Position numbers and translations under genes: made by a program. Below, one piece after another: positions 4,805 through 20,890 of a stretch of 64,000 nt of DNA (its first letter is position 1; each line of letters opens with the position of its first letter). The notes under the pieces were generated by a model. That model saw only the letters and a list, made by a program, of their open reading frames with translations. It had not been told where the DNA came from and ran no database searches. This stretch comes from Candidatus Obscuribacterales bacterium. Its GTDB lineage: Bacteria; Cyanobacteriota; Vampirovibrionia; Obscuribacterales; Obscuribacteraceae. The DNA lies in the NCBI GenBank assembly GCA_020050685.1, contig JAGVKG010000021.1:1-64000 (forward strand). Direction: 5' to 3'.

Positions 4805-5591
4805 GCGGTTCTTCGCCAGGCACCCGGTATTTACTACCGATGAGTTTGCTGCTGCCAATCAGCGCACCAAGCGCGAGTCAAAGCACTCGCTGCTGGCTTA
4901 CAACCGCCGGTCCGGTCGGTTGTTGAATATCCGGCGCGGTCTGTACGCAGTGGTGCCGGATGGCATGGAATCGGAATCTTACATGGTCAATCCGTTTCTG
5001 GTGGCCGGCAAGGCGACTGTGGACGCGGTACTTGCTTATCATGCAGCCTTGCAATTCCATGGTTATGCCTACAGCCACTTCAATACCGTGACCTATCTGA
5101 CTAGCCAGAAGGAGTCGAAGAAATTCACGTTTCAAGGTACCGAATACATCGGCGTGACGCAACCGAAGATCCTCATGCGCAAGGAGCAGCAAAATTTTGG
5201 CGTCGACATCGTCGACCAGCTGGGCATGGACATCCGCGTCACTTGCATCGAGCGCACGCTTGTTGATTGTTTCGATCGCATCGATCTGTCCGGCGGCATC
5301 GAGGAAGTATGGCGCTCATTGCAGCTCGTGCCGTACCTGCGCATGCAGCGCATCCTGGATTATTTGGCGCTGCTGGATAATGCGGTGACAACAGCCAAAG
5401 TTGGCCTCTTCTTCGAAACTTATAAAGAGCACTTGCGAGTTAAGGACGAAGACCTTGCCACTTTGCGCGGCCGCAAACCGCTTCACCGCTGTTACATGTT
5501 TCCCGGTGAGCATGGTGGCAAGCTTGTTTCCGATTGGAATTTGATAGTTCCTCAGGCCGTTCTTGAACGCAATTGGGAGGAACCGCTTTGA
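4776..5591 (+). CDS. abiEi: Type IV toxin-antitoxin AbiEi-family antitoxin
   Basis: A 271-residue protein of the AbiEi family, whose winged-helix N terminus represses its own operon and whose C-terminal part neutralises the AbiEii nucleotidyltransferase. Visible family features are the opening ARFFARHPVFTTDEFAAA, the wing segment RRSGRLLNIRRGLYAVVP (about 45-62), and VTCIERTLVDCFDRIDLSGG in the middle. The ATG at 4776 has no strong SD and sits inside the repeat block. The stop overlaps the TTG start of the toxin gene, so the two are translationally coupled. The gene is GC-richer than the neighbouring island genes, suggesting transfer from elsewhere. It may also be read from promoter A through the truncated AAA+ copy. 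Confidence 0.88.
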   Translation: MFSRSTFTNARFFARHPVFTTDEFAAANQRTKRESKHSLLAYNRRSGRLLNIRRGLYAVVPDGMESESYMVNPFLVAGKATVDAVLAYHAALQFHGYAYSHFNTVTYLTSQKESKKFTFQGTEYIGVTQPKILMRKEQQNFGVDIVDQLGMDIRVTCIERTLVDCFDRIDLSGGIEEVWRSLQLVPYLRMQRILDYLALLDNAVTTAKVGLFFETYKEHLRVKDEDLATLRGRKPLHRCYMFPGEHGGKLVSDWNLIVPQAVLERNWEEPL

Positions 5592-6553
5592 AAATTTCAA
5601 GCAATCGCCTCAACGAAATCGCTGCCGAGACAGGCTTCCGGCCTGACGCTCTGGAGAAAGTCATTCGGCTCCTGGACCTGCTCAATCAAATTTTTGAAAC
5701 CGAGTCTCTCAAAGACAAACTCGTCTTAAAGGGTGGAACCGGGCTCAATTTGTTCGTCTTCGACGTTCCACGCCTATCCGTGGATATCGATCTCAATTAC
5801 ATCGGCGCTGCCGATCTTAAAACCATGCAGGCGGAAAGACCAGACGTTGAAGCTGAGTTGCTGAGCATCTGTCGGCTCGCGGACTTCACTGTGAATGAGA
5901 TTCCATCTGATGATCATGCCGGTGGCAAGTGGAGGCTTTCATATCAGACCGCGTTCGGCTCTGCATCTAATCTGGAGCTGGACCTGAACTTTATGCATCG
6001 CGTCACCTTCCATCCGGTGAAGTTGCTGGATTCCAAAATCCTCGGCACATATCAGGCATCAAAGATTCCGGTGTTGGACACCATGGAATTAGCAGCCGGA
6101 AAACTGTCGGCGTTGCTCACGCGCAATGCCAGCCGCGACCTGTTTGATACAGCCAAGTTGAGTAAATTTGTTGACGTGGACAGCGAAGACTTCCGAGTGA
6201 TGCATGTATTGTATGGTGCGATGAACCCGCGCGCAGACTGGCGGCAAGTCGGCATTGATAACATCTCCGCCGACTTGAAAGAACTGAAACGCAAACTTAT
6301 TCCGGTACTGCGCACAAAGGATCTTGGCGCAAAGCGCGATGATGAAACACTGATCCAAAACTTAATCGATCAGTGTCGGCAATTTGTTTCTCACTTGTTT
6401 CCCCTGCGCGAACAGGAAGTCCAATTCATCGCGCTTTTGCGGGACCAGGGCAAAGTGGCGCCCGAGCTTCTGACCGCCGATCCTGACCTGGCTGAACGAA
6501 TCCACCGGCATCCGGGAATTCTCCGAAGGGCTGCCTCGGCGATAGCCGATTAG
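5588..6553 (+). CDS. abiEii: AbiEii-family nucleotidyltransferase toxin
   Basis: Toxin of the AbiE system: a DNA polymerase-beta-fold nucleotidyltransferase (DUF1814) that in studied relatives modifies tRNA acceptor ends and stops growth, including during phage infection. The start is taken as TTG at 5588, because GGAGG lies 7 nt upstream and the TTG overlaps the antitoxin stop (TTGA); this gives 321 residues. Motifs: KGGTGLN at 48-54, VDIDL at 65-69 carrying the metal-binding acidic pair, and a later Lys/Asp segment AGKLSALLTRNASRDLFD. All key motifs are intact, so the toxin is probably active. The stop lies 30 bp before the second duplication copy. Confidence 0.88.
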   Translation: MKISSNRLNEIAAETGFRPDALEKVIRLLDLLNQIFETESLKDKLVLKGGTGLNLFVFDVPRLSVDIDLNYIGAADLKTMQAERPDVEAELLSICRLADFTVNEIPSDDHAGGKWRLSYQTAFGSASNLELDLNFMHRVTFHPVKLLDSKILGTYQASKIPVLDTMELAAGKLSALLTRNASRDLFDTAKLSKFVDVDSEDFRVMHVLYGAMNPRADWRQVGIDNISADLKELKRKLIPVLRTKDLGAKRDDETLIQNLIDQCRQFVSHLFPLREQEVQFIALLRDQGKVAPELLTADPDLAERIHRHPGILRRAASAIAD

Positions 6554-6582
6554 CCAAGGACACCCAGTTTGCCAAGTGACGT

Positions 6583-6617
6583 GACTGCAAGTATTTCGCG
6601 GTCTGGCAGATTATAAT
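6583..6617 (+). promoter_or_regulatory. Shared-motif promoter B (intact AAA+ gene)
   Basis: GACTGCA (6583-6589), a 7-nt spacer, CGCGGTC (6597-6603), 8 nt, then a perfect TATAAT (6612-6617). The right half-site is weaker than in the other four promoters (5 of 7 paired), but the spacing is identical. It drives the intact AAA+ gene whose ATG is at 6702. Confidence 0.6.
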
Positions 6618-7051
6618 AAGAGCAACTTATTTACTTCGCGTTTCTTTCCTCTTCTCCCCACTCATCCGTGAGCGAGAGCAATTTTGCTCAGAAATAAATC
6701 TATGAAAACTAATAGCAAAGACAAATCACATTCTGAAACGGACTACATTCTCACTGCTGGCAAAAAGTCGATACGGCTTGAACTATTTCGCGGTGGTGAT
6801 TCGGCGCGCGTATCTATTAATAGTATGCTCAGGGAGCATTTTGGCTGCGATCCTAATTTGTTTCCGATTGTAGAAATTGGTGTGCCACCATATGATGTGC
6901 CCAATCTTTCGCGTGCGGTGGATAAATATCTGGAAGCAGATGCACGTTCTGCTAAGTTGATTGGTGTTCGCAGTGAATATGGCAATACGGACATGAGCGA
7001 TTTGCTGCGCGATGAAAATGACGCTAGTGCTGCAATGTACTGCGAAGGTTC
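6584..7051 (+). repeat. Direct duplication, copy 2 (468 bp)
   Basis: Matches 3895-4362 base for base at a constant offset of 2689. This copy runs on into the complete AAA+ gene, so the full gene sits right of the AbiE cassette and the truncated copy left of it. Confidence 0.92.
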
Positions 7052-8093
7052 GCTTCAATATGCTCACGTGGAACTTCCTGGCAAGCAGAAAATTGCTTGC
7101 GTTTCGCAGGGCTTGTACATGATTTGTGCCGGCAATCTTCGTTTGGCTGCTTTGATTAGTGAATCTCGCAATGGCTTCAAGCTCGAAGTTACTTCCAGCA
7201 CCAGAGAGGTGGCGGATGAGTTCATCAGCTCAATTCTTGCCGTTATGCCGGATGTGAATATTTACAAAGGCAAGATAGTTTCCGCAGTTCAAAACGATTC
7301 GGGTGCAATGGAGCTCAAGTTTCAGGAGCTGCCGAGCTTGACGCGCGAAGCTTTGATTCTGCCGGAGGGAGTTCTTGATTTAATCGAGAGACACACGATT
7401 ACTTTTTCAAGAAGAAGCGCGCGTTTGTTGAAAGCGCGACGCCATCTAAAACGTGGCTTGTTGCTGCACGGCGAGCCGGGCACGGGCAAGACACTTACGG
7501 CAATGTATCTTGCGCAGGCAATGGAAGGTCGCACTACCGTATTGCTTTCCGGATCAAGTATGTCGGTGCTTTCCGGTGCTTGTCGCTTTGCGCGAGAGCT
7601 GCAACCGGCAACATTGATATTGGAAGATATCGATCTGATTGCGGAGGACCGAAGTCGAAGCACTTCCAATAGTTTGCTATTTGAGTTGTTAAATGAAATG
7701 GATGGGCTGGCTGAGGATGCCGATATATTGTTTGTTCTTACAACGAATCGTCCGGAAGTTTTGGAGGCGGCATTGTCTCAGCGACCGGGACGCGTGGACT
7801 TGGCTGTGAAAATACCGTTGCCGGATGACAATTGCCGTCGGCGATTGTTTGAATTGTATGGCGAAGGTCTTAATTTGAATGTGGCTGAGCTTGATCATTA
7901 TGTTAAGCGCACCAGTGGCGCAAGTGCTGCGTTCATACGAGAGTTAATGCGCAGAGCGTCGCTACTCGCCGATGAAGATGGCGAGCTTTTGCGAGTCAAC
8001 GATGAGCACCTAAAGCAAGCGCTCGATGAACTGTCTACCAAAGATTCTGGATTGACGCGGAGCGTCTTGGGGTTTAGTGGCAGTCGTCTGTGA
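6702..8093 (+). CDS. AAA+ ATPase with an uncharacterised N-terminal domain
   Basis: A 463-residue protein. The C-terminal half is a classical AAA module: Walker A GEPGTGKT at 257-264, Walker B LILEDID at 305-311, sensor-1 TTN at 347-349, and an arginine-finger-like RPGR at 361-364, followed by a helical lid. The order resembles FtsH/Cdc48-type AAA proteins, but there is no protease motif. The first 220 residues match no family I recognise. The ATG at 6702 is preferred because it is conserved in both duplicate copies; a TTG at 6684 is an alternative and no good SD is seen. The leader has a GAGCAA-TT-TTGCTC hairpin just before the start. Function unknown; probably a remodelling ATPase of the island. 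Confidence 0.85.
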   Translation: MKTNSKDKSHSETDYILTAGKKSIRLELFRGGDSARVSINSMLREHFGCDPNLFPIVEIGVPPYDVPNLSRAVDKYLEADARSAKLIGVRSEYGNTDMSDLLRDENDASAAMYCEGSLQYAHVELPGKQKIACVSQGLYMICAGNLRLAALISESRNGFKLEVTSSTREVADEFISSILAVMPDVNIYKGKIVSAVQNDSGAMELKFQELPSLTREALILPEGVLDLIERHTITFSRRSARLLKARRHLKRGLLLHGEPGTGKTLTAMYLAQAMEGRTTVLLSGSSMSVLSGACRFARELQPATLILEDIDLIAEDRSRSTSNSLLFELLNEMDGLAEDADILFVLTTNRPEVLEAALSQRPGRVDLAVKIPLPDDNCRRRLFELYGEGLNLNVAELDHYVKRTSGASAAFIRELMRRASLLADEDGELLRVNDEHLKQALDELSTKDSGLTRSVLGFSGSRL

Positions 8094-8161
8094 TTGCCCG
8101 CCGGCAAGCAATTGTATGTAAAGGTGATATGCGTGGAAACGTTTGATTATGCACGTTGTGG

Positions 8162-9442
8162 TCATAAGGGGAACGACCAGAGCATCGACAACGGCAAGGC
8201 AATCCGGCCGGCACCGAATGACAGCAGATCGCTGCCCAGATAAACGACGAAACCTATACCTTTATAGCTTTTCCCGGGACCTTCGCTCATGAACCAGTTG
8301 ATATGGCGAAAGTCATCAGCTCCCACCTTGCCAGAGGCTTTCATTTCAAAAAGCGCTAGCAACCTGCCAGGTGCTTCAGCAACGATGTCGACTTCGCGCG
8401 CATCTTGCCTCCAATGATAAAGGCGCCAGCGCTTGCCCAAGTGCGGCAATGACTTCTCCAGTTCCGCGAAGACAAAGCTTTCAAGAACGTGCCCAAAAGC
8501 TACAGGATCGGCTCCAAGGCCGAAGCTGCTGCTGTCCTCTCCGCGTAGTGCCGTAGCGCAACCAGTGTCAAGAAAATGAAGCTTTGATGCCTTAATTTCA
8601 CGCTTGGCGCCAGAAGAAGTCCAGGCACCAAGGCGGTGTATGACACCCAGTCTGCAAAGAATATCTATATAACTGTCTACGGTTTCTTTGCGCGCCTGCA
8701 ACGCTTTACAGAGTGCAGCAACGCTGAGTTCCTCAGCCGTTCGTGCCGCTAACTGGTCGATGAGGCGGCGCAAAATGTCAGGCTTGCGAACCTCGGCAAT
8801 AGGAGCTACATCACGTTCAATGATGCTATCCAGGTAGCTTATGTATCTATGAGTGCGATCTTGATCACCAAGCTTACGGATTTCAGGGAACCCGCCGCGC
8901 ACGATTAGATCGCGAGCTTGCGCCCGCGTAAATGACAGCGCTTTGGGCAATGCGCCCAGGCAATCTTTAGGATACTCAAACACAATGTCGAGCAACCGGC
9001 AAGGACCCTGCTTGGCTATTTCCGGTGCACTCAGCGGGCGCAGCGTCAGTGTCATTACCCGGCCGGCCAGTGAGTCATATGCGTTGCCGGTCGTAAAAAT
9101 GTCCGATGAACCAGTCAGAATAAATTGTCCCGGTCGGCGATCGGCATCAACAATTCGTTTTAACGCCAGGGTAATTTCGGGCAGTCGCTGTACCTCGTCA
9201 AGCACGATAGGACGTCTCGACCCTTGCGCCTCTTCGCAAAGAAGCTCAAGCTGTCCATATGGGTCTGCTGCTAGTGCTGCCCGCATGCGATCATCGTCGA
9301 GACTCACATAGCGGCTTGTCAGGATAAGCTCCTTGACCAGAGTTGTCTTGCCTGCTTGCCGTGGCCCAACGATATTGACGACCCTGCTTGTGCCCAGAGC
9401 GCGCTCTACCCTTATTGCCAGATGACGCGTTAGTACTTTCAA
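8162..9442 (-). CDS. AAA_14/DUF4143 ATP-binding protein
   Basis: A 426-residue member of the large AAA_14-DUF4143 family, often scattered in accessory regions and of unknown function. Walker A GPRQAGKT is at 26-33, Walker B IVLDEVQ around 79-85, and a sensor-like ILTGSS follows. The middle part is a helix-turn-helix-like region, and the C-terminal DUF4143 domain carries EVDIV then FEMKAS, a pattern like PD-(D/E)xK nucleases. The ATG at 9442 faces the HipBA operon across a 250-bp divergent spacer holding four phased repeats. Some relatives are proposed to act in defence or as toxin-like ATPases; the sequence alone does not decide. Confidence 0.85.
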   Translation of the reverse strand: MKVLTRHLAIRVERALGTSRVVNIVGPRQAGKTTLVKELILTSRYVSLDDDRMRAALAADPYGQLELLCEEAQGSRRPIVLDEVQRLPEITLALKRIVDADRRPGQFILTGSSDIFTTGNAYDSLAGRVMTLTLRPLSAPEIAKQGPCRLLDIVFEYPKDCLGALPKALSFTRAQARDLIVRGGFPEIRKLGDQDRTHRYISYLDSIIERDVAPIAEVRKPDILRRLIDQLAARTAEELSVAALCKALQARKETVDSYIDILCRLGVIHRLGAWTSSGAKREIKASKLHFLDTGCATALRGEDSSSFGLGADPVAFGHVLESFVFAELEKSLPHLGKRWRLYHWRQDAREVDIVAEAPGRLLALFEMKASGKVGADDFRHINWFMSEGPGKSYKGIGFVVYLGSDLLSFGAGRIALPLSMLWSFPL

Positions 9443-9560: not shown

Positions 9561-9691
9561 GATTAGGGCTGTAATGGTTGAGCTAAATGCTGGTCTTGCT
9601 ACAGGGCTGCATTGCCCGGGTTGCTCGAGTTGATAATAAGTGGTAAAATATTGCTCATTAGATCCTTAAATTGGAAATAAGAGGCAATATT

Positions 9692-9997
9692 TTGCACTTT
9701 GAGTTAGCGGCTACTGACGAGATCGCCCGGGAGTTCGGCAATCGACTTCGGGCTCACAGGCTGGCTGAAAACCTCCAGCAAAGTGAGCTAGCCGCCCGCG
9801 CCGGTATATCTCGAAGGACACTGGTCAACTTCGAGCGCAGCGGGCGCGCCTCTTTCGATGTGTTCTTGCGCATAGCAACGGCGCTCGGCCTCGTCGAGTC
9901 CATGTCGAACTTATTTGAGCTAAAGCCAAAATCCATCAAGGCTATGGAGCGAGCTAATCAAAAGCGCCAACGAGCATCGCGGAGACAATCCGAATGA
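9692..9997 (+). CDS. HipB-like Xre-family antitoxin
   Basis: A 101-residue helix-turn-helix protein. The Xre domain covers about residues 14-75 (FGNRLRAHRLAENLQQSELA, GISRRTLVNFERSGRASFDV). I choose the TTG at 9692 because GAGG lies 7 nt upstream; a TTG at 9671 would add seven residues and lacks a ribosome site. The gene overlaps the next one by four bases (ATGA), the usual layout of hipBA operons. It is expected to bind HipA and repress the operon, possibly through the phased repeats upstream. The basic C-terminal tail (RANQKRQRASRRQSE) is likely disordered. Confidence 0.85.
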   Translation: MHFELAATDEIAREFGNRLRAHRLAENLQQSELAARAGISRRTLVNFERSGRASFDVFLRIATALGLVESMSNLFELKPKSIKAMERANQKRQRASRRQSE

Positions 9998-11223
9998 AGA
10001 AGTTGAGCGTGATCTACATGGGCTGGGGGGAGCGATTCGAGTTGGGAGTGCTGGCGGACGACGGCAGAGAGCTTCTTTTCGAGTACTCACCTCAAGCGAT
10101 AAACCGCGGCCTTGAACTTTCGCCTCTCAAACTACCGTTAAGTTCGAAATCGTTTGGTGATTTTCCGGAACATCAGTTTCGATTGCCCGGACTGGTGAGT
10201 GATGCCTTGCCAGATGGCTGGGGCATGTTGTTGATGGACAGGCTCTTTCGTAAGCAGGGAAGGGATCTGGCTCAGATCTCTCCTTTGGATCGACTGGCGT
10301 TCATTGGCGACAAAGCGATGGGAGCACTCGCCTTCGAGCCAGCCGAGCGCGAGTCACTCACACTAACAGATGTGCAATTGCTGGATCTCGCACGCGATGT
10401 TCGCCACGTAATGGATGATGAGAGCGAGGTTCTATTGCGTAAACTTGCTCTGATGGGCGGTTCGCCTCACGGTGTGCGTCCGAAGGTCTTGGTGAATTTT
10501 GATCGCAAAAGCAATCGCATGTACAGTTCGGAGAGTGGTGAAGGAAGCCCTATTTTGGTGAAATTTCCAGCACAGCATGAGCACAAGGATGTATGCGCGG
10601 TGGAAGCAATGTACAACCGGATCGCTAGTGCGAGTGGGATTCGAGTTCCTGTAATGGAATACTTTGATCTCGACACGGAGCTTTCAGCGTTTGGTATCGA
10701 ACGCTTCGATCGCTTCGAGAGCATGCGCATACCAATGCACACGGCGGCCGGAGCGGCGCATGTGGATTTTCGGATTCCGCAGCTCGACTACATTGCTTTG
10801 TTGCGATTGACGCAGTTCATGACCCGCGATGCACGGGAGGTGCTGCAAGCGTTCAAGCGATGCGTGTTCAATGTAATGTTCAACAACCGGGACGACCATT
10901 CGAAAAACTTTTCCTTCTTAATGGGGAAGGATGGCAGATGGCAACTTTCGCCCGCCTATGATCTGACATTCAGCCAAGGACCGAACGGTGAACATCAAAT
11001 GGATATTTGCGGCGAAGCACGCGCTCCTGCACGCAAACATTTGCTGCAACTGGCAAATAAGAGTGGTATCGCGGAACGAGCGGCTGCGGAAATCATCGAG
11101 CGAATTGCTACTGTGGCGGAAGGCTTCAGTGACTTTGCCAGTGCTTTACCGATCAGAGCCGAAACACTGAAGCTAATTGAGAAGGCAGTGAAGTCGAATC
11201 GTGCACGGCTCGTCACAAATTAA
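9994..11223 (+). CDS. HipA-family serine/threonine kinase toxin
   Basis: A 409-residue HipA-type kinase. HipA toxins phosphorylate targets such as glutamyl-tRNA synthetase and induce dormancy. Family segments visible: ELSPLKLPL in the N-subdomain, LPDGWGMLLMDRLF, GGSPHGVRPKVLV near 153-165 (ATP-site region), the catalytic NNRDDHSKNF near 297, and SPAYDLTFSQGPNGEHQM near 318. All key kinase residues are present, so the toxin is probably active. The start overlaps the antitoxin stop. The stop overlaps the stop of the convergent nuclease-helicase gene (shared TTAA at 11220-11223). Confidence 0.9.
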   Translation: MKKLSVIYMGWGERFELGVLADDGRELLFEYSPQAINRGLELSPLKLPLSSKSFGDFPEHQFRLPGLVSDALPDGWGMLLMDRLFRKQGRDLAQISPLDRLAFIGDKAMGALAFEPAERESLTLTDVQLLDLARDVRHVMDDESEVLLRKLALMGGSPHGVRPKVLVNFDRKSNRMYSSESGEGSPILVKFPAQHEHKDVCAVEAMYNRIASASGIRVPVMEYFDLDTELSAFGIERFDRFESMRIPMHTAAGAAHVDFRIPQLDYIALLRLTQFMTRDAREVLQAFKRCVFNVMFNNRDDHSKNFSFLMGKDGRWQLSPAYDLTFSQGPNGEHQMDICGEARAPARKHLLQLANKSGIAERAAAEIIERIATVAEGFSDFASALPIRAETLKLIEKAVKSNRARLVTN

Positions 11224-14200
11224 GTATTTTGTTGATCAACAATTCGGCAGAACAAATTCACAAGTTGCATCTGCTCGACGCTTGTGCAATTTGCGTTTGA
11301 TAGTGCGGGATTTGCGACAACAATCGCAAGCGTTTCGGCGCGAGAGATGGCGACGTTTAGTCTGTTTTTGCTGAAGAGAAAGTCTAATCCGCGGGGGGAG
11401 TCGGTGGCGTTGCTTGCGCACATCGATACGATCACGACGGGCTTTTCGCGGCCTTGGAATTTGTCCACGGAGGCAACGAGTGCGTTAGGCAATCGACTCT
11501 TGATCTTGCGCACCTGCATGTTGTAGGGCGCAACGATTAGGATGTCGTCTAATTTTAATGGGCGGTTAACCTTGGCTTCTTTATTATACACGCTGCAATG
11601 CAGTAGCTCTTCTACTAATTGTGCGATCATGTCTGCTTCTTCGTCGCTGCCTTGGGTGTTGCCTTCATGTTGAACCGGCACGAACAACAATCCGGCCGTT
11701 TTGGAAATGTGTTTGATACCACTTTCGGGAATGGTGAGTATGCGCGCGGCGGCGTCCGGGTGTGAATGCAATCTGTCTTGATAAATTGCGCCGGAGGTGA
11801 ATTTACAAATTTCTGGATGCAGTCGATATGTAAGACCAAGGAATATGCCAAGATCTTCTGGTATGACTTGATGTTCGCCAAGAAAATATTCAAGTGCAGA
11901 CTTTCCACTTTCTCCAGGATGTGCACCTTTCATCGGCTGGCTCAATTGCATTTGATCGCCAATCAAAACAATATTGGTTGTGCTTGGTGCCATGCCGACG
12001 ATGTTGGCGACAGCTACCTGACCAGCTTCATCCACAAATAGATAATCAAGCGTGCCAGTAGCACCTTCGTCGCTAAAAGCCCAGGCGGTGCCGCCTACTA
12101 AATCAAATATACATGCACCGGAAGCAAAACCAGCTTTTGCATCTTTCACATGACGCACCAGACCGGTATTAAATAATTCGTGGTCTGATTCACCGGCAAG
12201 TTTAGCGGCGTTCAGTGCGAGCCCGGCTTCTTTTGCTTTCTTGGCAGTAGCAAGCAGCAAATTGCAAATCGCTTGATGGGAATGGGAAGTGATGCCTATT
12301 TTCTTTCCTGCCTTGAGGAGCTCAACAATAATTGCGGCTGCGGTTGTGGTTTTGCCACCACCAGGTGGACCTTGAATGCACAATGTCGTGTTGTCCATAT
12401 TGCGCACAACATCAATTGCGGATTGCCTTAAATCAACACCATCTGGAATGATTTTACCTGCGGTTTTGCCAACAATTCTAGGACGTTTGCGCAGAAGAAA
12501 GTCCTCAATTGCCTGAGGCAATTCACCTTCGTCGTGCCAATGCAAAACAGTTCGATAAATTGATGCAGCGATTTTTTCCGCGCCCACAAAGTCTTGTGGG
12601 ATAAGACTCAAACGCTGTGGAGGTGGTAGCACCTTGACGCCAAGTTTGATTGAAGCCAAGCCGGCTTCTTCATCAAGACTGTAAATTGAAGTTCCCGAGC
12701 TGAGATCGTGCGCATAAATGCATTTATCACCCGTGGCAAGCTTTGTGTCCTGCACGGGATCATAACTATATTCGTATGCAAAGGATCGTTTTACTTGGAC
12801 AGGTGGCGTGCCTGTTCTTTCCAATCCGCCTAGGCAATCAATATTATCTATAAGTTGTTGCTCCGTCATCGCATGCCGGTCGTACCTTGCCCAGAAAACT
12901 GGCTTTGCTTCCCGCCAGTGAAATTCCAATAAGTGCGCAAGCAGTTCTTGTAGCTCGCAGTCTTGCGAAAACTCATCGGGCTCAGGCAAATCGGACAACA
13001 ACATTGCTGCCAATTGGGCAGCATCGTTTCTGCGATCGACCTTTTCCGAATCAATTGCCTTCTTTTCTTCCGGTGGTACCCATGTAATTCCATTTGACTT
13101 TTGCACATCGCGCAGCCAACGCGCAAGTTGCCAGGTTGAATCACAATCGTCTTGGTTGTAATCGCGAATGTCCTTGAGTGTTTTGGAGGTCTGCCAAGTA
13201 TCACCATCCCGCTTTTCCAGCCAGCGTTCATAAAAGACAATTGAATCAGTGGCTTTGGCCACTTCACCTTTGCGTTTTTCGCGATAAAGATGTTCGACGT
13301 TCTTAATTGAATAGCTTGGTTCACCAATGCGCAGACCCTGGCGAACTACAGTGTATAAATCAACGAACACCTCGTTGCGCAAGAGGTCATCTACTTCCTG
13401 CTCGCGTGTGCCATAGCGCCCCATCAACTTACGCAGAGCAGCAACTTCATATACGTTGTAATGGTAAATGTGCATGGTCTTGTCATTCAACCAGCGTTCG
13501 TGTACCCAATCAACAAATTCTTCAAATGCTTGTCTTTCTTCCTCGCGATTGTGTGCCCACCAGTCTCGGAATTCCGGCTCGCCGTCTTGTATGTAAGTTG
13601 CGCCAAACAAATATTCCAATCCGCCTTGTACGTGGGGATAACCCTCCATGTCGAAGAACACATCATTGGCGGATGCGGGAGGTAAGAGCGTTAGACCGCG
13701 GCGAGGGTTCTGTGGATTTTGTGCTATCAACTCGTATTTTGGTTTGGGTAAACCGAGAGATTCCAATTGCAGGCGCGCTTGTTGCTTGAGTGTGGCAAGA
13801 GTGTCGGACTGCATGTCCGGGATATAAGACAACTGTGATTGAGCAAGCTCTGTGAGCGTGTTGATGCCAGCGCTCTTGAGCTTCTTAATTTGCGTTGCGC
13901 GAATGTTTGCCACGCGACTTAGGTGATCGCATTCCTCCATCAATTGTTCTGCGTGACTTTGCCAGCGTCCCAATTTTTCTAACGCAGACACCTCTGGAGC
14001 TTTGTTCGGATCGAACGTGGCTTGAGCCTTAAGAAAAGATTCCTTTAGGCTTTTGTAAAAGTAGAAATAATCTGCGGTGCGGAATGAGCGCAAGTCTCCA
14101 TTCCCTAGTACAATTTGTAATACGCTGGGCGTCACGCCCTGAATGGTCTCGAGCATTTCCGCGTAGCAGCAAAGTTGAATGATGAAGTAAGGTTTTGGTT

Positions 14201-14612
14201 TGAGCGCAAGCTTGGTATCTGACACCAAATAATGGAAATCGCCCAGGTTGGATTTGCCTTCTGCTCTGGTGAGGAAATCCGCAAAGCCGGCGAAGCCGTC
14301 GCTGCGTAATGCCGCTTGATAGATGACATCGGCGCCGCTCTTCATTGCTTCCAGGGTGAGAGCTTGCGCGTCCCCTTTGTTGCTGGCGATCTCGCATACG
14401 TTCTTATGAGTTTGTTTCAGTCGATCGAGATAGGCAGCTTCGTGCTTGAGCCCGTGCTCGCGTAAGATGCGCATTTCCTCGCCTGCTTCATCGGGCTTAA
14501 CCTGATCGGGAAACTCTAGATAGAAGCGGTCCATGTAAGACGCGAACGGCGATTCCATGAATGTGATTAGGTCCGATGGCGAATAGACTAATGTGCCGTT
14601 TTGTTTCTTCAT
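11220..14612 (-). CDS. TM0106-type RecB-like nuclease fused to RNase H-like domain and SF1 (Dna2-like) helicase
   Basis: An 1130-residue multidomain enzyme. The N-terminal part is a RecB-type PD-(D/E)xK nuclease (GFADFL near 105, SDTKLALK near 128, QLCCYAEM near 145). A central RNase H-like domain begins FFDMEGYPH near 319 and ends NQDDCDSTWQL. The C-terminal half is a superfamily 1 helicase of the Dna2/UPF1 kind: GPPGGGKTTT near 746, FVDEAGQ, GDQMQLSQP near 879, YRLHPEI, and KFQGREKPVV with NVAISRA near the end. It should unwind and degrade DNA or RNA-DNA structures, in repair or defence. The start is the ATG at 14612. A shared-type promoter (site C) lies about 40 bp upstream, so it is predicted to be co-regulated with the thermonuclease operon and WYL gene. 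Confidence 0.9.
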   Translation of the reverse strand: MKKQNGTLVYSPSDLITFMESPFASYMDRFYLEFPDQVKPDEAGEEMRILREHGLKHEAAYLDRLKQTHKNVCEIASNKGDAQALTLEAMKSGADVIYQAALRSDGFAGFADFLTRAEGKSNLGDFHYLVSDTKLALKPKPYFIIQLCCYAEMLETIQGVTPSVLQIVLGNGDLRSFRTADYFYFYKSLKESFLKAQATFDPNKAPEVSALEKLGRWQSHAEQLMEECDHLSRVANIRATQIKKLKSAGINTLTELAQSQLSYIPDMQSDTLATLKQQARLQLESLGLPKPKYELIAQNPQNPRRGLTLLPPASANDVFFDMEGYPHVQGGLEYLFGATYIQDGEPEFRDWWAHNREEERQAFEEFVDWVHERWLNDKTMHIYHYNVYEVAALRKLMGRYGTREQEVDDLLRNEVFVDLYTVVRQGLRIGEPSYSIKNVEHLYREKRKGEVAKATDSIVFYERWLEKRDGDTWQTSKTLKDIRDYNQDDCDSTWQLARWLRDVQKSNGITWVPPEEKKAIDSEKVDRRNDAAQLAAMLLSDLPEPDEFSQDCELQELLAHLLEFHWREAKPVFWARYDRHAMTEQQLIDNIDCLGGLERTGTPPVQVKRSFAYEYSYDPVQDTKLATGDKCIYAHDLSSGTSIYSLDEEAGLASIKLGVKVLPPPQRLSLIPQDFVGAEKIAASIYRTVLHWHDEGELPQAIEDFLLRKRPRIVGKTAGKIIPDGVDLRQSAIDVVRNMDNTTLCIQGPPGGGKTTTAAAIIVELLKAGKKIGITSHSHQAICNLLLATAKKAKEAGLALNAAKLAGESDHELFNTGLVRHVKDAKAGFASGACIFDLVGGTAWAFSDEGATGTLDYLFVDEAGQVAVANIVGMAPSTTNIVLIGDQMQLSQPMKGAHPGESGKSALEYFLGEHQVIPEDLGIFLGLTYRLHPEICKFTSGAIYQDRLHSHPDAAARILTIPESGIKHISKTAGLLFVPVQHEGNTQGSDEEADMIAQLVEELLHCSVYNKEAKVNRPLKLDDILIVAPYNMQVRKIKSRLPNALVASVDKFQGREKPVVIVSMCASNATDSPRGLDFLFSKNRLNVAISRAETLAIVVANPALSNANCTSVEQMQLVNLFCRIVDQQNT

Positions 14613-14650: not shown

Positions 14651-14685
14651 ATGATACAGCGAGTCACTGCATTAAGTTTGCAGTG
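14651..14685 (-). promoter_or_regulatory. Shared-motif promoter C (nuclease-helicase gene)
   Basis: A perfect palindrome CACTGCA (14665-14671), 7 nt, TGCAGTG (14679-14685). On the minus strand an 8-nt gap is followed by the -10 hexamer TATCAT (14656-14651). Flanking bases also resemble site D upstream of the thermonuclease gene (GATGATA then TCACTGCAT). Confidence 0.75.
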
Positions 14686-14910: not shown

Positions 14911-15360
14911 ATGATAAGGACAGAAGCTGAATACAATGAGTGCCTAAAGCGCTTGAAACAGGATAAGGATTTCATTTCCAAGCAGAAGAAGGCGTTGGTG
15001 GCCGAAGGCTTATCTAAGGAGACTGTTCAACGAGCGCTGCAGCCATCTTTGTCTTTTCACGAGCGGATGGTTGAGGATGTCCAGTGGTACGAAAGAGTGA
15101 AACGACGTGATTTCGGTGCGTTAACACAATTGACAGATCTAGGGCAGTGGCTTATTGCGCTACGTATTGCTAATGCTATCAGCCAGTCCGAGTTGGCTAG
15201 ACGTTTGGGTGTAAAAGAATCGCAAATATCACGGGACGAGAAGAATGAATATCACGGTATCACCCTTGAGCGGGCTCAGCGCGTTTTGGACGCACTGCAA
15301 GAGGAGCTCGAAATTTGTGTTTCAGAGAAACGAACTCGAAAGAGGCATCGCGTGTTATAG
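14911..15360 (+). CDS. Xre-family helix-turn-helix regulator
   Basis: A 149-residue protein. The N-terminal part is a charged helical region (MIRTEAEYNECLKRLKQDKD), like antitoxins that precede an Xre domain. The HTH domain covers about 80-135 (GQWLIALRIANAISQSELA, GVKESQISRDEKNEYHGITL). AAGGA stands upstream of the ATG at 14911. No toxin gene is adjacent on the same strand: the next genes are convergent exported proteins, and the divergent neighbour is the nuclease-helicase. It may be a solitary regulator of that divergent gene. A palindrome at 14846-14857 could be its operator. Confidence 0.8.
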   Translation: MIRTEAEYNECLKRLKQDKDFISKQKKALVAEGLSKETVQRALQPSLSFHERMVEDVQWYERVKRRDFGALTQLTDLGQWLIALRIANAISQSELARRLGVKESQISRDEKNEYHGITLERAQRVLDALQEELEICVSEKRTRKRHRVL

Positions 15361-15384: not shown

Positions 15385-15720
15385 TTATTCTTCTATTCCG
15401 GGTCCCCAAATTGTATAGCCATTGCCGAACGGTGTTACATTTACGATGCCATTGACCGGACCACCCCAGACGGTGTATCCATTGCCAAATGGTGTTACGT
15501 TTATGATGCCGTTTATTGATCCGCCCCAAACGGTATAGCCATTGCCAAATGGTGTGACGTTTATGATCCCCGGTGCTGCGAAATCGCGTGCCGGATAACG
15601 CCGAGCATATTGCATAAACATATTGTTTGAATGGCGATTGTAATGACCAAAACTTTGTGCCTGTGCCGGCAGCGTCGCCAGTAAGATTGTTGTCGCGAGC
15701 AAAACTTGTTTCTTAAACAT
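15385..15720 (-). CDS. Small exported protein with three 21-residue repeats
   Basis: A 111-residue protein with a clear signal peptide (MFKKQVLLATTILLATLPAQA, cleavage after AQA). After a His/Arg-rich stretch come three tandem repeats of about 21 residues, each containing G-I-(I/V)-NVTPFGNGYT-(V/I)-WG, encoded by 63-bp DNA repeats between about 15403 and 15568. It is the last gene of a four-gene operon (gaps of 22 and 17 bp and an overlap) headed by the thermonuclease. I do not recognise the repeat. The aromatic/glycine composition suggests an extracellular beta-rich or surface-binding peptide. AGGAGG stands before the ATG. Confidence 0.75.
   Translation of the reverse strand: MFKKQVLLATTILLATLPAQAQSFGHYNRHSNNMFMQYARRYPARDFAAPGIINVTPFGNGYTVWGGSINGIINVTPFGNGYTVWGGPVNGIVNVTPFGNGYTIWGPGIEE
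15403..15568 (-). repeat. Coding tandem repeat, about 63-bp unit, 2.6 copies
   Basis: Three copies of a segment encoding NVTPFGNGYT(V/I)WG lie in tandem with a 63-bp period inside the small exported protein gene. The copies are about 90 percent identical, so the expansion looks fairly recent. Confidence 0.8.
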
Positions 15721-15741
15721 TGTGACCTCCTCGATATCAGA

Positions 15742-17169
15742 TCATAATTTTGATGTTTGCATAGCTGTATTTACCGGTGCCACTTTGTTTTTACGCCAGA
15801 GTGGTGCCGTTATATTGTCAGCCAGAAAATCCAGACGGACAGATTCTTTACCTTTGACAGTCACTGGCAATAGCCAGAACATCGCTTCTTCATCGGCAAG
15901 CAAGTAAGCGTAGAGATAGTACTTGCCTTCGGGAACGTTTTTTATCTGAAATTCTCCGCCCTTGTCTGTCTCGACAATTGTGACCGCATCCTGGCTGACC
16001 ACACGATTTATTTCCAATAAGAGATCGCGCGCCTGGGCCTTGATGCCTGGCCATTTGCCTATGAAATTCTCTGTTTTTAGCCCGAATTTGCCGGCGAATT
16101 TATGAATGGCTTCGATCATTCTTGGTTCAACGGATTCTCTGCACAGAGCAATTTGCACCTCTTTGACATCATTTACCTTGGCCTCGTCTTTGATTTTGCT
16201 CTCGGTGTGAGTTTCCGCCTTCTCGCCGCTAATTGACTTGTTTATGCTTTTGAGTTCGACGCGATCTATTGGCACTTGCATGGTACCGTATATGGTGCAC
16301 ACCTTTTCGTTCATCGCCCTCAATTGGGCCAGGGCATCGGCCAATGCTTGTTGTTCGGCTAGCTTGCGCGCAGCTTCGATGTTTTCCTGGTCGATGATGT
16401 TTTCGGAAGCCAGAAGAAGTGGACGAAGTGCATTTCTAGGTGGTGCAAAGATCGAAACTGGAATTTGTCGCGATGTTGCGCCTGTCTTTCGTATTATCGA
16501 ATAGGCCTGGCTTTCGTATTGTTTGCCGTGGACGGTATCAAGATTGTCATAGTAGGCGCAGGCGACATGCATCAGACTGGCGGCAACCTGCTTGTGATTA
16601 GGCCCCAGGAGTTTGCGGCGAATGTCGGCGGAATTTCTGTATAAAGCAATTGCTTTCTCATACTGATGATCGATGCGATAGACGTGGCCGAGGATATCCT
16701 GAGTAGTGGCAACTTCCAGGCTGTGATCTCCATTGCAAGACTGTCTTGTTTCCAATGCTTCATTGAGATATTTGAGCGAATCAGTGAACAGCCCCTGTTT
16801 GTAATAATAAGCTCCCAGGTTTTCCAAACAGGAGGCCAGTTGTTTTGGCTCTTCCGCTTGATGTGTGCGAGCAATATCGAGCGCTTGTTTAAGCTTGGTT
16901 TCGAGTTCTTTTAGTTTCTTTATTTCGCGGTGCTTGGTTGGAGGATGGACGGTTGCCGGTCTGTTATTGATTATGAACGCGACGTCGTCTGCCTGAGGAG
17001 TCATTGCTACTTCTGCTGCCGAGCCGCTTTCAGTTGAGAATTGCCAAAAATTGTCTTCTGCATTTTCTCCATGCGCGGAATTGATCGTGGCAAGATTGCC
17101 GGTGCCGATAATCAGCAATACTATAAACCAGTAGCGACTTTGATCGAAGATGCTTGATTGTGTAAACAT
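15742..17169 (-). CDS. Exported TPR protein with a C-terminal beta-sandwich-like domain
   Basis: A 475-residue protein with an N-terminal hydrophobic segment (YWFIVLLIIGTGNLATINSA) that should direct export. Kinesin-light-chain-type TPR repeats run from about 90 to 220 (LASCLENLGAYYYKQGLF, EVATTQDILGHVYRIDHQYE, KQVAASLMHVACAYYDNL). A coiled, charged region follows. The C-terminal end has DAVTIVETDKGGEFQIKNVP and EGKYYLYAYLLADEEAMFWL, a pattern like carboxypeptidase-regulatory (transthyretin-like) domains. Third gene of the thermonuclease operon, 17 bp downstream of the hypothetical exported protein. Likely a periplasmic or surface scaffold; no enzymatic motif seen. Confidence 0.75.
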   Translation of the reverse strand: MFTQSSIFDQSRYWFIVLLIIGTGNLATINSAHGENAEDNFWQFSTESGSAAEVAMTPQADDVAFIINNRPATVHPPTKHREIKKLKELETKLKQALDIARTHQAEEPKQLASCLENLGAYYYKQGLFTDSLKYLNEALETRQSCNGDHSLEVATTQDILGHVYRIDHQYEKAIALYRNSADIRRKLLGPNHKQVAASLMHVACAYYDNLDTVHGKQYESQAYSIIRKTGATSRQIPVSIFAPPRNALRPLLLASENIIDQENIEAARKLAEQQALADALAQLRAMNEKVCTIYGTMQVPIDRVELKSINKSISGEKAETHTESKIKDEAKVNDVKEVQIALCRESVEPRMIEAIHKFAGKFGLKTENFIGKWPGIKAQARDLLLEINRVVSQDAVTIVETDKGGEFQIKNVPEGKYYLYAYLLADEEAMFWLLPVTVKGKESVRLDFLADNITAPLWRKNKVAPVNTAMQTSKL

Positions 17170-17185
17170 TGTTGCACCTCTGCAA

Positions 17186-17962
17186 TTAGGGACTTGTTGC
17201 TAAGCGACTATCGGCGGGAATTAGGTTGGTCATGCCATGAGTTTGCAAATATTCGGCAAACAGTGCGCGCATATTTTTCCCGCGATAAACATTCCAGGGT
17301 GAAAATGGCGCGACTCGCATTTGATAGCAAAGGCCTTTGGCCATGCGAATTGGCTTGCCTTCCTCATCAAATGATTTGATGGAGAGTTGCACTTTGATTA
17401 GTCCCGGAGCGCAAGGAGTGTATACCTGTATTGCCTCGGTTTGAGAGCTGCATCTGATGATTTGATAGGTTTTATCCACCAGAATGCCGGTGCTGACAAA
17501 CTTGAGCGTCATGCTCTGTTCCGACACATCGAGCGGTTCGAAATATTTGACCAAATGATAGGACCAGGCGTCGTTACGCTCAGTTTCTGTTATGTAATTG
17601 TTATAACAGTATTCCCATATCTGTCCTTGAAAATCTTTTTGCCAGCCACGCGTTTCATCGGAGCGCGCCATAAATGTATCCTGCAAATATAGCTTGTCGT
17701 TTGTTTGATACGTGTAATGAAAATAATTCGTCTGCTTCTCAAAGTGCCACGTGCCGGCAGCCCAAGCCGGAATGCGATACCAGAGATTGTTTGGCGTGAG
17801 AGCCTTCAGTTTTGTTGTGTCGATGGCGACACCAGGGCGCAAAGATGCATCAACAGGCGGCAGGCTGTCGCTGTGTTCGATGCGCCCGTGGAGCACCATC
17901 TGGGCATGCGCAGGTTGCCCCAGGAAAAGTATGATCATGATCGCTAACATCAGGTTAGACAT
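17186..17962 (-). CDS. Exported protein of unknown function
   Basis: The ATG at 17962 is chosen because it overlaps the thermonuclease stop (TAATG) and AAGGAG lies 10 nt upstream; a start at 18001 would overlap the previous gene more. The 258-residue product begins with a signal peptide (MSNLMLAIMIILFLGQPAHA). The mature part has many Trp/Tyr residues (WYRIPAWAAGTWHFEKQTNY, GQIWEYCYNNYI) and a Cys pair (IRCSSQ, YTPCAPG), in keeping with a small beta-barrel or lipocalin-like fold, but I recognise no family. Second gene of the operon driven by promoter D. Confidence 0.7.
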   Translation of the reverse strand: MSNLMLAIMIILFLGQPAHAQMVLHGRIEHSDSLPPVDASLRPGVAIDTTKLKALTPNNLWYRIPAWAAGTWHFEKQTNYFHYTYQTNDKLYLQDTFMARSDETRGWQKDFQGQIWEYCYNNYITETERNDAWSYHLVKYFEPLDVSEQSMTLKFVSTGILVDKTYQIIRCSSQTEAIQVYTPCAPGLIKVQLSIKSFDEEGKPIRMAKGLCYQMRVAPFSPWNVYRGKNMRALFAEYLQTHGMTNLIPADSRLATSP

Positions 17963-18492
17963 TATTTGTGTCGCTCCTTGTTTTCTTTTCGAAATTGCCA
18001 AGGAGCGATGCTCGTGGAATCTGCCCAGAGCCCGCGATTGTGATATTGAGCTTCTGCTTCCAAGGCGGCTAGCTCCTTATCGTGAGAAAATCTTCGATAC
18101 CACCAGGCATAGCCGGCTCGAACTAGATTGTGATTAAGAGATGTTCCGTCAGGCAAGATGACGTTGCCCAGCATGCGACCATATTTGTCCTTGCCTTCCA
18201 CGCTGATAGTCACCTCTTTGCCGAATACAAGATCAGAAGTGAATTGTTTGGCTTTCGATCCAAATGGCTGGGATTTTTCCGGGCAATCAATTCCAGCAAG
18301 ACGCACGCGGGCCGGTTTGCCATTGAACAGAACGTGAAGTGTGTCACCATCGGCGATACCAACGACTGTGGCCGTGTATTGCTGCGCACATACTGATAAC
18401 GGTTTGGCACAAAGGAAAAATAACAGGAGTAGGGTGGTACTGGTGAGCAGTATTCTCGATTTTGCTTTGCCAAAGCAATGCCCAGTCATCAT
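17962..18492 (-). CDS. Secreted thermonuclease (SNase-fold)
   Basis: A 176-residue staphylococcal-nuclease-type enzyme, which hydrolyses DNA and RNA using calcium. A signal peptide covers about 1-36 (ILLTSTTLLLLFFLCAKPLS). The SNase domain follows: VVGIADGDTLHV, VRLAGIDCPEK with the conserved Arg and Asp, VEGKDKYGRMLGNV, and RAGYAWWYRRF. AGGAGG lies 6 nt before the ATG at 18492. It heads an operon of four exported proteins and has a shared-type promoter (site D) about 75 bp upstream. It probably degrades extracellular or incoming DNA. Confidence 0.92.
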   Translation of the reverse strand: MMTGHCFGKAKSRILLTSTTLLLLFFLCAKPLSVCAQQYTATVVGIADGDTLHVLFNGKPARVRLAGIDCPEKSQPFGSKAKQFTSDLVFGKEVTISVEGKDKYGRMLGNVILPDGTSLNHNLVRAGYAWWYRRFSHDKELAALEAEAQYHNRGLWADSTSIAPWQFRKENKERHK

Positions 18493-18551
18493 GGATGACC
18501 TCCTTGCGATGTTTGAGAGTTAACACCGGCGTTTGGCTAGTCTTAGTATCG

Positions 18552-18586
18552 ATGATATACGGCGTCACTGCATAAGGAGTGCAGCG
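18552..18586 (-). promoter_or_regulatory. Shared-motif promoter D (thermonuclease operon)
   Basis: CACTGCA (18566-18572), 7 nt, TGCAGCG (18580-18586). On the minus strand an 8-nt gap is followed by the -10 hexamer TATCAT (18557-18552), the same hexamer as site C. It lies about 60-95 bp upstream of the thermonuclease start and just beyond the WYL gene stop. Confidence 0.72.
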
Positions 18587-18614: not shown

Positions 18615-19577
18615 TTACGTGTATTGTTTTATGGCTGCTTGTAGTTCGCGCCGCACAAGATCGCGTAAGAGCGCGGGCTCTATTACTTCGGCTTCGCTGC
18701 CATAGGTTAGCACCCAGCGTTTTGTTTCATCAAGGCTGCTTGTGCGAAATTCCATTATGCAAGATCCGTCTGCATGCTCGACGAGCATTTGCGTCGGATG
18801 CCAACTTCTTTCGCGAATGTATCTGGCGGCAGTCGGCTGGAAGTGAATTTTTACTGTTTGCGTATCGTCGCCATGCTCGAGTAAGAACGCAGAATTGAGC
18901 CAGGCATCAATGTCAAAATCCTTGCGTCGCTCAAAATGTTCGCTTAGCATTTCATATTCTTTAATGCGGTGCAGAGCAAACAGGCGAAAGTCCTGGCGCA
19001 TTTGGCAATAAGCAAGCAAATACCAGGTGCCTCGATTTTCTAGGAGTTTATAAGGATCAACTTGTCTCGCGGAAACTTCGCCTTTGCTTGCAGCGTAATA
19101 GACAAGCCGCATACGTTTGCGCTTATGGCAGGCTTCGTTAAGCGTGCTGAACATATTCCAGCTCAACGGTATCAATGCCACCGGATCAAATTTCACTTCG
19201 CTGGTGTTGGCATCGCCATTCGTGTTCTTCTTTTCAGAAAGACGCTCTTCGATTTTTTCCATGGCGCTATCCAGATACGGTTGAACAGTGGCGCCACTAT
19301 ATTCGGCAAGCATAGTTTTGCTCAACCTGAGCGCACAAAGCTCCGTCTCCGTAAGCTCGAACATGGGTAAAGTCTTTTCGGGGTTGGCATTGAAGTAACC
19401 ATTGCGATACCGATCGTAAACAATTTCCATGCCCATTTCTTCGCGCAACGCCCGCACATCGTCGTAAAGAGTGCGTTCTTTAATTTCAAACATGCGGCAC
19501 AAAGTGACAACGTCCGGATAACGCCCTTTTCTGATCTCGTTGAAAATCCCTACTAGTCTCTCGAGACGATTCGGCAT
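18615..19577 (-). CDS. WYL-domain transcriptional regulator
   Basis: A 320-residue regulator. The start is taken at the ATG at 19577 (MPNRLERLVGIFNEIRKGRY), because GAGGAAAA precedes it and this is the usual N terminus; a start at 19634 would add 19 residues. An N-terminal winged helix (TLCRMFEIKERTLYDDVRAL) is followed by a linker and the WYL domain (RMRLVYYAASKGEVSARQVD, LLENRGTWYLLAYCQMRQDF, RLFALHRIKEYEML) plus a C-terminal WCX part. WYL proteins sense nucleic acid or nucleotide ligands and often control defence or DNA-damage genes. Its own promoter has the best copy of the shared palindrome, so it is the leading candidate for the protein that binds all five sites. Confidence 0.9.
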   Translation of the reverse strand: MPNRLERLVGIFNEIRKGRYPDVVTLCRMFEIKERTLYDDVRALREEMGMEIVYDRYRNGYFNANPEKTLPMFELTETELCALRLSKTMLAEYSGATVQPYLDSAMEKIEERLSEKKNTNGDANTSEVKFDPVALIPLSWNMFSTLNEACHKRKRMRLVYYAASKGEVSARQVDPYKLLENRGTWYLLAYCQMRQDFRLFALHRIKEYEMLSEHFERRKDFDIDAWLNSAFLLEHGDDTQTVKIHFQPTAARYIRERSWHPTQMLVEHADGSCIMEFRTSSLDETKRWVLTYGSEAEVIEPALLRDLVRRELQAAIKQYT

Positions 19578-19627
19578 AGGCTTTTCCTCGCCCGTTAACC
19601 ATGCAACAGAGAAGCGCAAACCCTTGA

Positions 19628-19643
19628 GCTGCAAGCTTGCAGC
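19628..19643. promoter_or_regulatory. 16-bp perfect palindrome in the WYL leader
   Basis: GCTGCAAGCTTGCAGC, 51 bp upstream of the WYL start. It contains the same CTGCA and TGCAG half-sites as the shared motif, but with a 4-nt spacer instead of 7. It may be a second, weaker autoregulatory site. Confidence 0.45.
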
Positions 19644-19689: not shown

Positions 19690-19726
19690 AACATATATCA
19701 ACTGACTGCATTATTTTTGCAGTCAG
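19690..19726 (-). promoter_or_regulatory. Shared-motif promoter E (WYL regulator gene)
   Basis: CTGACTGCA (19702-19710), 7 nt, TGCAGTCAG (19718-19726): perfect 9-bp arms, the longest of the five sites. On the minus strand the TGCAGTC half is followed by 8 nt and then TATGTT (19695-19690) as -10. Confidence 0.75.
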
Positions 19727-19834: not shown

Positions 19835-20890
19835 TTACTCTACGGATGCGGGCTCGTCTATGATCTCAAACGTTGAGAGTCCTGTTTCCAACTCTTCAAT
19901 TGTCGGAAGCTGCCCCCTCAACTCCTCAGGCAATGCCTCAGTTAGTTGATATGCCGATACACCAATTGGCTTGTTAACATCACGCAGGGCATACTCGGCG
20001 ACGAGCTTGTCTTGTTGCTTGCACAGGATCAGTCCTATGCTTGGCTGGTCATCCGGATGCCGAAGCAGATCATCAATCGCCGAAAGGTAGAAGTTCAACT
20101 TGCCGGCATACTCTGGTTTAAACTTGGTTGCCTTCAGCTCGATGACAAAATAGCAACGCAACTTCAAATGGTAAAAGAGCAAGTCGATGAAAAAGTCTTG
20201 ATTGCCGATCTCCATGTGGTACTGCCGCCCAACAAAAGCGAATCCAACGCTAAGCTCTAGCAAGAAGTGCTGAATGTGATTGACTAATGAATTCTCTATA
20301 TCTCGTTCATGAGCTTCGGAGTCCAGACTTAAGAAATCAAATGAATATGGATCTTTCAAGATTTGATCAGCTAGGTCAGATTGTGGGCTTAGCAATGTTT
20401 TGTCGAAATTGGTAATTGCTTTACCTTGGCGTTGGTACAAACGTGATTCTATTTGTAGCACTAGTACATTTCGGCTCCATCCATGCTGTAGGGTTTGTTG
20501 TATGTACCAACGGCGCTCGGTGTCGTCGTTAACATAGTCAAGAATGCGGACATTGTGGCCCCAGGGAATTTGTGCAACAGCCTGTTGCACAAATTCAAAT
20601 TCAGGGTACGCCCCGGCGAAAGCCCTCATGTATTTTAGGTTCCGGGACGAAAACCCTTTCATTTCCGGGAAGCTGGACCTTAGATCTAGGGCAAGCTTGT
20701 CGATGACCTTAGCACCCCAACCCAGAGCATCTTGGCGCTCAAGAATATCCCGCCCAATTTGCCAATAAAGCACGACCAACTCTTTGTTAACGGAAAGCGC
20801 TGCACGAATCTGCGCTGTTCGGATACGATCCTTCAGTTCGTTGAGAAACTCAGTATAGCTATGTGATGTCTCTGGCAAGTTTTTTGTCAC
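19835..20890 (-). CDS. DUF1016/YhcG-type PD-(D/E)xK nuclease-domain protein
   Basis: A 351-residue protein starting at a GTG (20890) with AAGGA upstream. The N-terminal DUF1016_N helical region has LSVNKELVVLYWQIGRDIL, SFPEMKGFSSRNLKYMRAF and IPWGHNVRILD. The C-terminal YhcG domain shows a PD-(D/E)xK layout: NQDFFIDLLFYHLKLRCYFV, IELKATKFKPEYAGKLNFYL (Asp, Glu-x-Lys). Relatives are accessory genes linked to restriction or mobile elements; the function is not established. It is 258 bp from the WYL gene on the same strand, and no shared-type promoter was found upstream. Confidence 0.88.
   Translation of the reverse strand: MTKNLPETSHSYTEFLNELKDRIRTAQIRAALSVNKELVVLYWQIGRDILERQDALGWGAKVIDKLALDLRSSFPEMKGFSSRNLKYMRAFAGAYPEFEFVQQAVAQIPWGHNVRILDYVNDDTERRWYIQQTLQHGWSRNVLVLQIESRLYQRQGKAITNFDKTLLSPQSDLADQILKDPYSFDFLSLDSEAHERDIENSLVNHIQHFLLELSVGFAFVGRQYHMEIGNQDFFIDLLFYHLKLRCYFVIELKATKFKPEYAGKLNFYLSAIDDLLRHPDDQPSIGLILCKQQDKLVAEYALRDVNKPIGVSAYQLTEALPEELRGQLPTIEELETGLSTFEIIDEPASVE

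Follow-up and report, generated by a model that had tools for sequence, protein, structure and literature searches.

A secreted thermonuclease operon as a candidate exported branch of a WYL-regulated defence regulon in Candidatus Obscuribacterales

Results

Candidatus Obscuribacterales is a non-photosynthetic, cyanobacteria-related lineage. We analysed a 64,000-nucleotide stretch of DNA from one member (the window; positions 1 to 64,000 of contig JAGVKG010000021.1, our contig C39), which belongs to a 4.2-Mb metagenome-assembled genome that is 98.7% complete. It carries a four-gene operon on the minus strand (15385–18586), headed by a gene for a secreted staphylococcal-type nuclease (SNase); the feature end was moved to ∼18586 to take in a regulatory site, operator D. 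We lean slightly towards the reading that this operon is the exported nuclease branch of an immune/DNA-damage regulon activated by the WYL-family regulator encoded next to it. The regulatory part of this reading is well supported; the products would act against DNA outside the cytoplasm.

An operon of exported proteins carries the island's shared promoter

The operon comprises four open reading frames (ORFs) separated by −1, 16 and 21 bp, with the ATG of the second gene inside the SNase stop codon (1-bp overlap), so that strand, order and gaps match the arrangement given in a first-pass annotation. The genes encode the SNase (176 aa; 17962–18492), an all-beta protein (g2; 258 aa; 17186–17962), a TPR protein (g3; 475 aa; 15742–17169) and a small protein with three 20-aa repeats, INVTPFGNGYTVWGG (g4; 15385–15720). 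A minus-strand scan for sites resembling intrinsic terminators found none within the operon, and the four genes are predicted to be co-transcribed. All four proteins begin with a hydrophobic, signal-peptide-like segment, as had been claimed; these were called by eye and from hydrophobicity, a crude test. A distance of 122 bp separates the operon from the WYL gene, which is upstream, in the same orientation, and carries a promoter copy of its own.

Comparison of intergenic regions defined the shared motif as a 19-bp palindrome, ACTGC-N9-GCAGT. Alignment of the flanks after this operator revealed T, A and T at positions +10, +11 and +15, respectively, i.e. a −10 element (TAnnnT) separated from the operator by exactly 9 bp on its downstream side. 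Of the 81 distinct exact operators, TAnnnT stands at offset 10 in 41, against an average of ∼1.6 for other offsets (P ∼2e-47); this offset had originally been noticed in only part of the set, and the effect is far too large for this bias to matter. All five window sites have TAnnnT at +10 on one side. Three are exact operators (3895, 14666 and 19705) and two are one-mismatch operators within promoters (6584 and 18567).

The first-pass annotation had assigned the operon a single promoter at site D, and this was confirmed. Operator D (GCTGC-N9-GCAGT, minus strand, 18567–18585) is followed after 9 bp by the −10-like TATCAT (18552–18557), which faces the operon and ends 59 bp ahead of the SNase start. 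The full site reads GCTGCACTCCTTATGCAGT-GACGCCGTA-TATCAT, and no −35 was recognisable by eye. The other four promoters point to genes of the same island: E (operator plus TATGTT, no mismatches, minus strand, 19690–19723) to the WYL gene itself, C (operator plus TATCAT, no mismatches, minus strand, 14651–14684) to a nuclease-helicase gene, B (one-mismatch operator plus TATAAT, plus strand, 6584–6617) to an AAA gene, and A (operator plus TACAAT, no mismatches, plus strand, 3895–3928) towards 3983–4411 and an AbiE pair (4776–6553). Site A was rejected as a promoter of the Mrr gene at 2789–3826, since its −10 is on the other side and faces the plus strand.

A search of the genome for ACTGC-N9-GCAGT-N9-TAnnnT with at most one mismatch returned ten matches, of which five were promoters A–E, all within 16 kb. 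The remaining five had one mismatch each, about the number found with a reversed-pattern control, and some were the same palindromes read in reverse. The WYL regulon in this genome is therefore essentially the island. Two looser searches were discarded: the broad motif CTGCA-N7-TGCAG alone was too permissive (5 of 8 genome matches outside the island), and a two-mismatch scan performed no better than shuffles.

The WYL protein resembles damage-responsive activators

The regulator gene (18615–19634, minus strand, true start probably at 19577) encodes a protein with WYL (4.2e-24) and WCX (1.9e-20) domains above the Pfam cut-offs, together with an HTH_11 (helix-turn-helix) match that scores below its cut-off (13.7 versus 25 bits), although its N-terminal location is the expected one. 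Its named relatives are mostly from Candidatus Obscuribacterales metagenome-assembled genomes. A profile of 12 orthologues matched PafBC (2e-25) and DriD (1e-15) far better than the entries named BrxR (2e-8) or CapW (1e-4), so the latter two were not its closest relatives in this comparison.

DriD binds a pseudo-palindrome that overlaps the −35 at a fixed distance from the −10, and is switched on by single-stranded DNA (ssDNA) (PMC12340889). PafBC promoters have the form tTGTCRgtg-8nt-TAnnnT (PMC5656591), and PafBC is likewise activated by ssDNA (PMC11804915). The sites described here share this arrangement, standing at a fixed −10 distance and covering the −35 position in the 41 exact operators noted above and in all five window sites. 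This geometry and the closer profile match than BrxR favour a DriD/PafBC-like activator, presumably ssDNA-responsive, over a BrxR-like repressor.

The promoter precedes defence genes in relatives

To count sites across the family, a narrower form of the operator was used on 50 Obscuribacteraceae genomes. It gave 73 sites among the matches listed, versus ∼11 for a reversed control. Operator density was 0.50/Mb in the 16 genomes with a WYL gene and 0.041/Mb in the 20 without (P = 2e-11, treating genomes as independent and ignoring kinship). Among the genes that follow the operator or full promoter in relatives are WYL genes and the same nuclease-helicase, which is divergent from the WYL gene in at least four (G012, G030, G023 and G033); where a relative's helicase gene has no WYL gene beside it, the operator is absent. 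Other genes behind the operator or promoter encode Cas1, Cas6, JetA/JetC (Wadjet), a DrmD-like helicase (DISARM-like), 5-methylcytosine and Dam-type methylases, PDC-S37, PDC-S02 and an AddB-like nuclease. As the motif itself guided part of the choice of loci, and annotation is lacking for several of the genes downstream, this list is a description rather than a calibrated enrichment. Coordinate export under the island regulator, as proposed in the first-pass annotation, was supported, and so was a link to defence genes, the latter by the motif search in relatives and by the regulator's own promoter E.

Beyond the phylum, a promoter of the form TGCA-N7-TGCA-N9-TAnnnT precedes an AddAB-like operon (Chloroflexi) or a CRISPR–Cas-like locus in Chloroflexi, Abditibacteria or Firmicutes, these identities having been read by eye from N-termini. 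The WYL switch appears to be old, because relatives in these three groups keep a related promoter. WYL orthologues there carry A(C/G)TGCA-N7-TGCA(C/G)T-N9-TAnnnT promoters before themselves (L136, L138, L148, L151, L153 and L155).

Two further gene families were observed behind the operators. In several genomes, small ORFs of 66–88 aa with related N-termini (PEQ...E.AL.) come immediately after the WYL promoter (L125:9962–10162, L127:11682–11882, L132:3775–4041 and L133:9174–9419). A Cys-containing family of 173–177 aa follows one or two operators in one genus (L299:3609–4130, L303:3532–4062 and L305:3652–4185), and the one member tested had no Pfam match.

Parts of the operon recur with WYL genes or the promoter

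The g2–g3–SNase set recurs with WYL genes once, in another genus, where genome G006 has the order WYL–g2–g3–SNase–WYL (identities 45% for g2, 28% for g3, 50% for SNase and 44% for the second WYL). The g2–g3 order is also conserved in G034, where the pair lies near a WYL gene, and in G010 (contig C61) a g3-like gene lies ahead of g2. A g4 homologue (53–66% identical) adjoins both a WYL gene and the nuclease-helicase only in G031.

The full promoter was found ahead of SNase in G026 and G010 (contig C90), ahead of g2–g3 in G034 and the TPR–g2 pair in G010 (contig C61), and ahead of the g4 homologue plus an exported TPR protein in G031; G015 has the operator, without the −10, ahead of SNase. Counting the window's own, 3 of 41 SNase genes had the full promoter compared with 7 of 455 other ORFs at the same loci (Fisher P = 0.04), although several of those seven are themselves regulon members.

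Two arrangements were seen alongside these. In G034 (contig C602; L229:530–2101), a second, more distant WYL gene is divergent from an SNase gene, with the operator between them and the −10 on the WYL side. In G010, two operators with near-identical flanks occur on different contigs, one ahead of an exported protein of 330 aa and the other ahead of a g2-like exported protein (L306:3248–4240 and L307:3281–4495), which suggests promoter duplication.

The SNase active site is intact and g2 matches no Pfam or NCBIfam family

The SNase domain matches PF00565 (1.6e-28; 99.7 bits against a Pfam cut-off of 21) and aligns to solved thermonucleases (E = 2e-14). Residues D50, R64, D69, E72 and R106 correspond to the catalytic D21, R35, D40, E43 and R87 of the Staphylococcus aureus nuclease, so by alignment the predicted active site is intact. 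In a PADLOC scan of the SNase, only the generic SNc+LTD model was matched (6.9e-19), and within that scope the operon matches no catalogued anti-phage system.

No curated NCBIfam family matched g2, g3 or g4 above the cut-off. For g2, which had no Pfam match either, the AlphaFold (AF2) model is confidently all-beta (pLDDT 90); a fold identity from the PDB was rejected (best E = 3e-3, query TM <0.3). The description of g2 as Trp-rich holds only mildly, as it has 7 Trp in 258 aa (2.7%). Its family is large, exported and beta, with no Pfam entry. A single Obscuribacterales genome can have as many as 11 copies; the family occurs in most Obscuribacteraceae genomes searched and is missing from almost every other family in the class. 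Further members lie at G000:C44:39327 and G000:C21:70820, and a scan of a genome-contig collection with g2 gave no match. The g3 protein matches TPR_12 (2.8e-23), with weak C-terminal matches to transthyretin/prealbumin-like domains (fn3_3, 1e-3), and its homologues adjoin g2 in G006, G034 and G010; a scan of viral contigs with g3 gave no match.

The promoters lie in a dense defence and toxin–antitoxin island

The window contains a dense island of defence and toxin–antitoxin genes (2789–9442 and 19835–20890), with a type IV Mrr nuclease, AbiEi/AbiEii, an IetA-like AAA protein, PDC-S01, HipBA (9671–11223) and PDC-S02. The AbiE pair towards which promoter A points includes AbiEii (PADLOC, 1.5e-95). 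Promoter B serves an AAA ATPase resembling IetA of the Iet defence system (6684–8093, plus strand; PADLOC, 1.9e-17), and promoter C a 1130-aa fusion of a TM0106-type RecB-like nuclease (RNase_H_2) and an SF1 helicase (11220–14612, minus strand; TIGR03491, 3e-76, and Pfam). An XRE-type regulator (14911–15360) is convergent with the operon, and no partner toxin was identified for it.

Discussion

Because one switch drives the helicase-nuclease, the ATPase and the regulator in this genome, and CRISPR, Wadjet and other defence genes in relatives, the SNase operon looks like the outward-facing arm of an inducible immune or DNA-damage response. We propose that WYL dimers bind the 19-bp palindrome, which covers the position where a −35 box is missing, and bring RNA polymerase to the −10 element 9 bp downstream. 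The trigger would probably be binding of ssDNA or oligonucleotides, arising from infection or DNA damage, to the WYL domain. The same signal could then turn on all five promoters: E for the WYL gene, C for the nuclease-helicase, B for the AAA ATPase, A for the AbiE side of the island and D for the operon itself. The nuclease would be exported to the periplasm or out of the cell. Its envelope partners would be g2, g3 (the TPR protein) and g4 (the repeat protein), which may help its localisation, stability or surface retention. At its destination the nuclease might cut DNA or RNA, either incoming phage DNA or DNA from lysed neighbours. The specific version, in which a nucleic-acid-sensing WYL activator turns on intracellular defence together with the export of a nuclease and dedicated envelope partners, so that phage DNA is destroyed before it is inside the cytoplasm, we put forward only tentatively.

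Several results weigh against these proposals. The first-pass annotation had suggested a search for conserved four-gene order; the exact order was found in none of 60 relatives, with only g2–g3 kept (G006 and G034). The G006 operators lack the stereotyped −10, and site D itself has one mismatch to the consensus. Most SNase genes of the family are without such a promoter (38 of the 41 above), and the promoter excess at SNase genes is modest and not significant without the window. The g2 family is mostly outside the WYL regulon, several operator-driven genes in relatives carry no defence annotation, and the sequence alone would be compatible with repression as well.

The best-surviving alternative, possible though rather less likely, is that the operon is a unit for scavenging or for remodelling extracellular DNA, for nutrient or biofilm purposes, placed under a stress regulator for timing only, while the defence genes co-respond to lysis or damage. 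Extracellular nucleases do serve nutrient acquisition and biofilm turnover (PMC6085458), SNase genes elsewhere in the family stand alone in ordinary surroundings, and the wide distribution of g2 beyond the regulon fits as well. However, all five WYL promoters of the genome are in one defence and toxin–antitoxin island, and the operon has no phosphate or nucleotide uptake genes.

Somewhat more doubtful is that the WYL protein is a BrxR/CapW-like repressor that silences the island until infection, in which case membership of a defence regulon would hold and only the mode would be opposite. The phage-defence WYL regulators identified by 2023 are repressors, whereas the damage-linked ones are activators (PMC10693628), and a site at the regulator's own gene is typical of autorepressors. 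BrxR, a repressor, recognises inverted repeats ahead of defence genes, each 11 bp long and 5 bp apart (PMC9122601), but the operator here has short arms and a wider gap. It also takes the place of the −35 at a fixed −10 distance in about half of the exact sites, as in DriD, and the protein is nearer to PafBC and DriD than to BrxR.

We consider it unlikely that the response is self-directed, with the exported nuclease and its partners turned, in an abortive step comparable to BapE, on the envelope of the producing cell or on DNA set free when it dies. DriD controls bapE and is tied to an apoptosis-like response in Caulobacter (PMC12340889), and the island holds AbiE and HipBA toxin–antitoxin pairs. 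Nevertheless, the signal peptide should direct the SNase away from the chromosome, and the operon has no lysis or holin-like gene. Equally improbable, and already disfavoured by the recurrence in other genera (the same partners with WYL in G006, g2–g3 with the operator in G034 and G010, and g4 with the WYL promoter in G031), is a chance landing of an ordinary SNase and exported genes in a defence island, even though the four-gene order is not conserved and SNase and g2 genes are common in the family.

If the exported-branch reading is correct, the benefit to the cell may be protection from foreign DNA, and 'extracellular' immunity would become testable. The presence of a damage-type promoter on defence genes throughout one bacterial family, and very probably in further phyla, links immunity to the sensing of DNA damage, and the signature of this promoter can be searched across genomes to find new defence genes. 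Defence islands under WYL control are already known, and so is activation of the DriD type; the open-access literature searched contained no case of the two combined with an exported nuclease operon.

The components can be compared with known systems. The operon SNase shares its domain, catalytic residues and signal peptide with secreted thermonucleases of the S. aureus Nuc type and EcnA, but NCBIfam matches to EcnA/NucI are far below the cut-offs, and the partners and regulator differ. BrxR and CapW, like the WYL protein here, adjoin defence genes and control them through inverted repeats (PMC9122601, PMC9122588); they differ in a weaker sequence match, in acting as local repressors and in site geometry, and the available portions of those reports describe no exported operon. 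SiwR, a WYL activator of Mycobacterium smegmatis, has a 19-bp imperfect palindrome in the promoter that it activates, yet is known to control only an adjacent DinB-like gene pair (PMC10693628). PafBC, the mycobacterial DNA-damage activator, is the best profile match and its motif likewise stands at a fixed distance from TAnnnT, but it is heterodimeric and its motif is not palindromic, unlike the operator here. The homodimeric DriD of Caulobacter shares the helix-turn-helix–WYL–WCX architecture, a ∼20-bp site over the −35 and a site at its own gene (PMC12340889), a likeness of geometry rather than of operators compared base by base. The regulons diverge: that of DriD includes recJ and bapE (PMC12340889), whereas the one described here joins defence genes to exported proteins.

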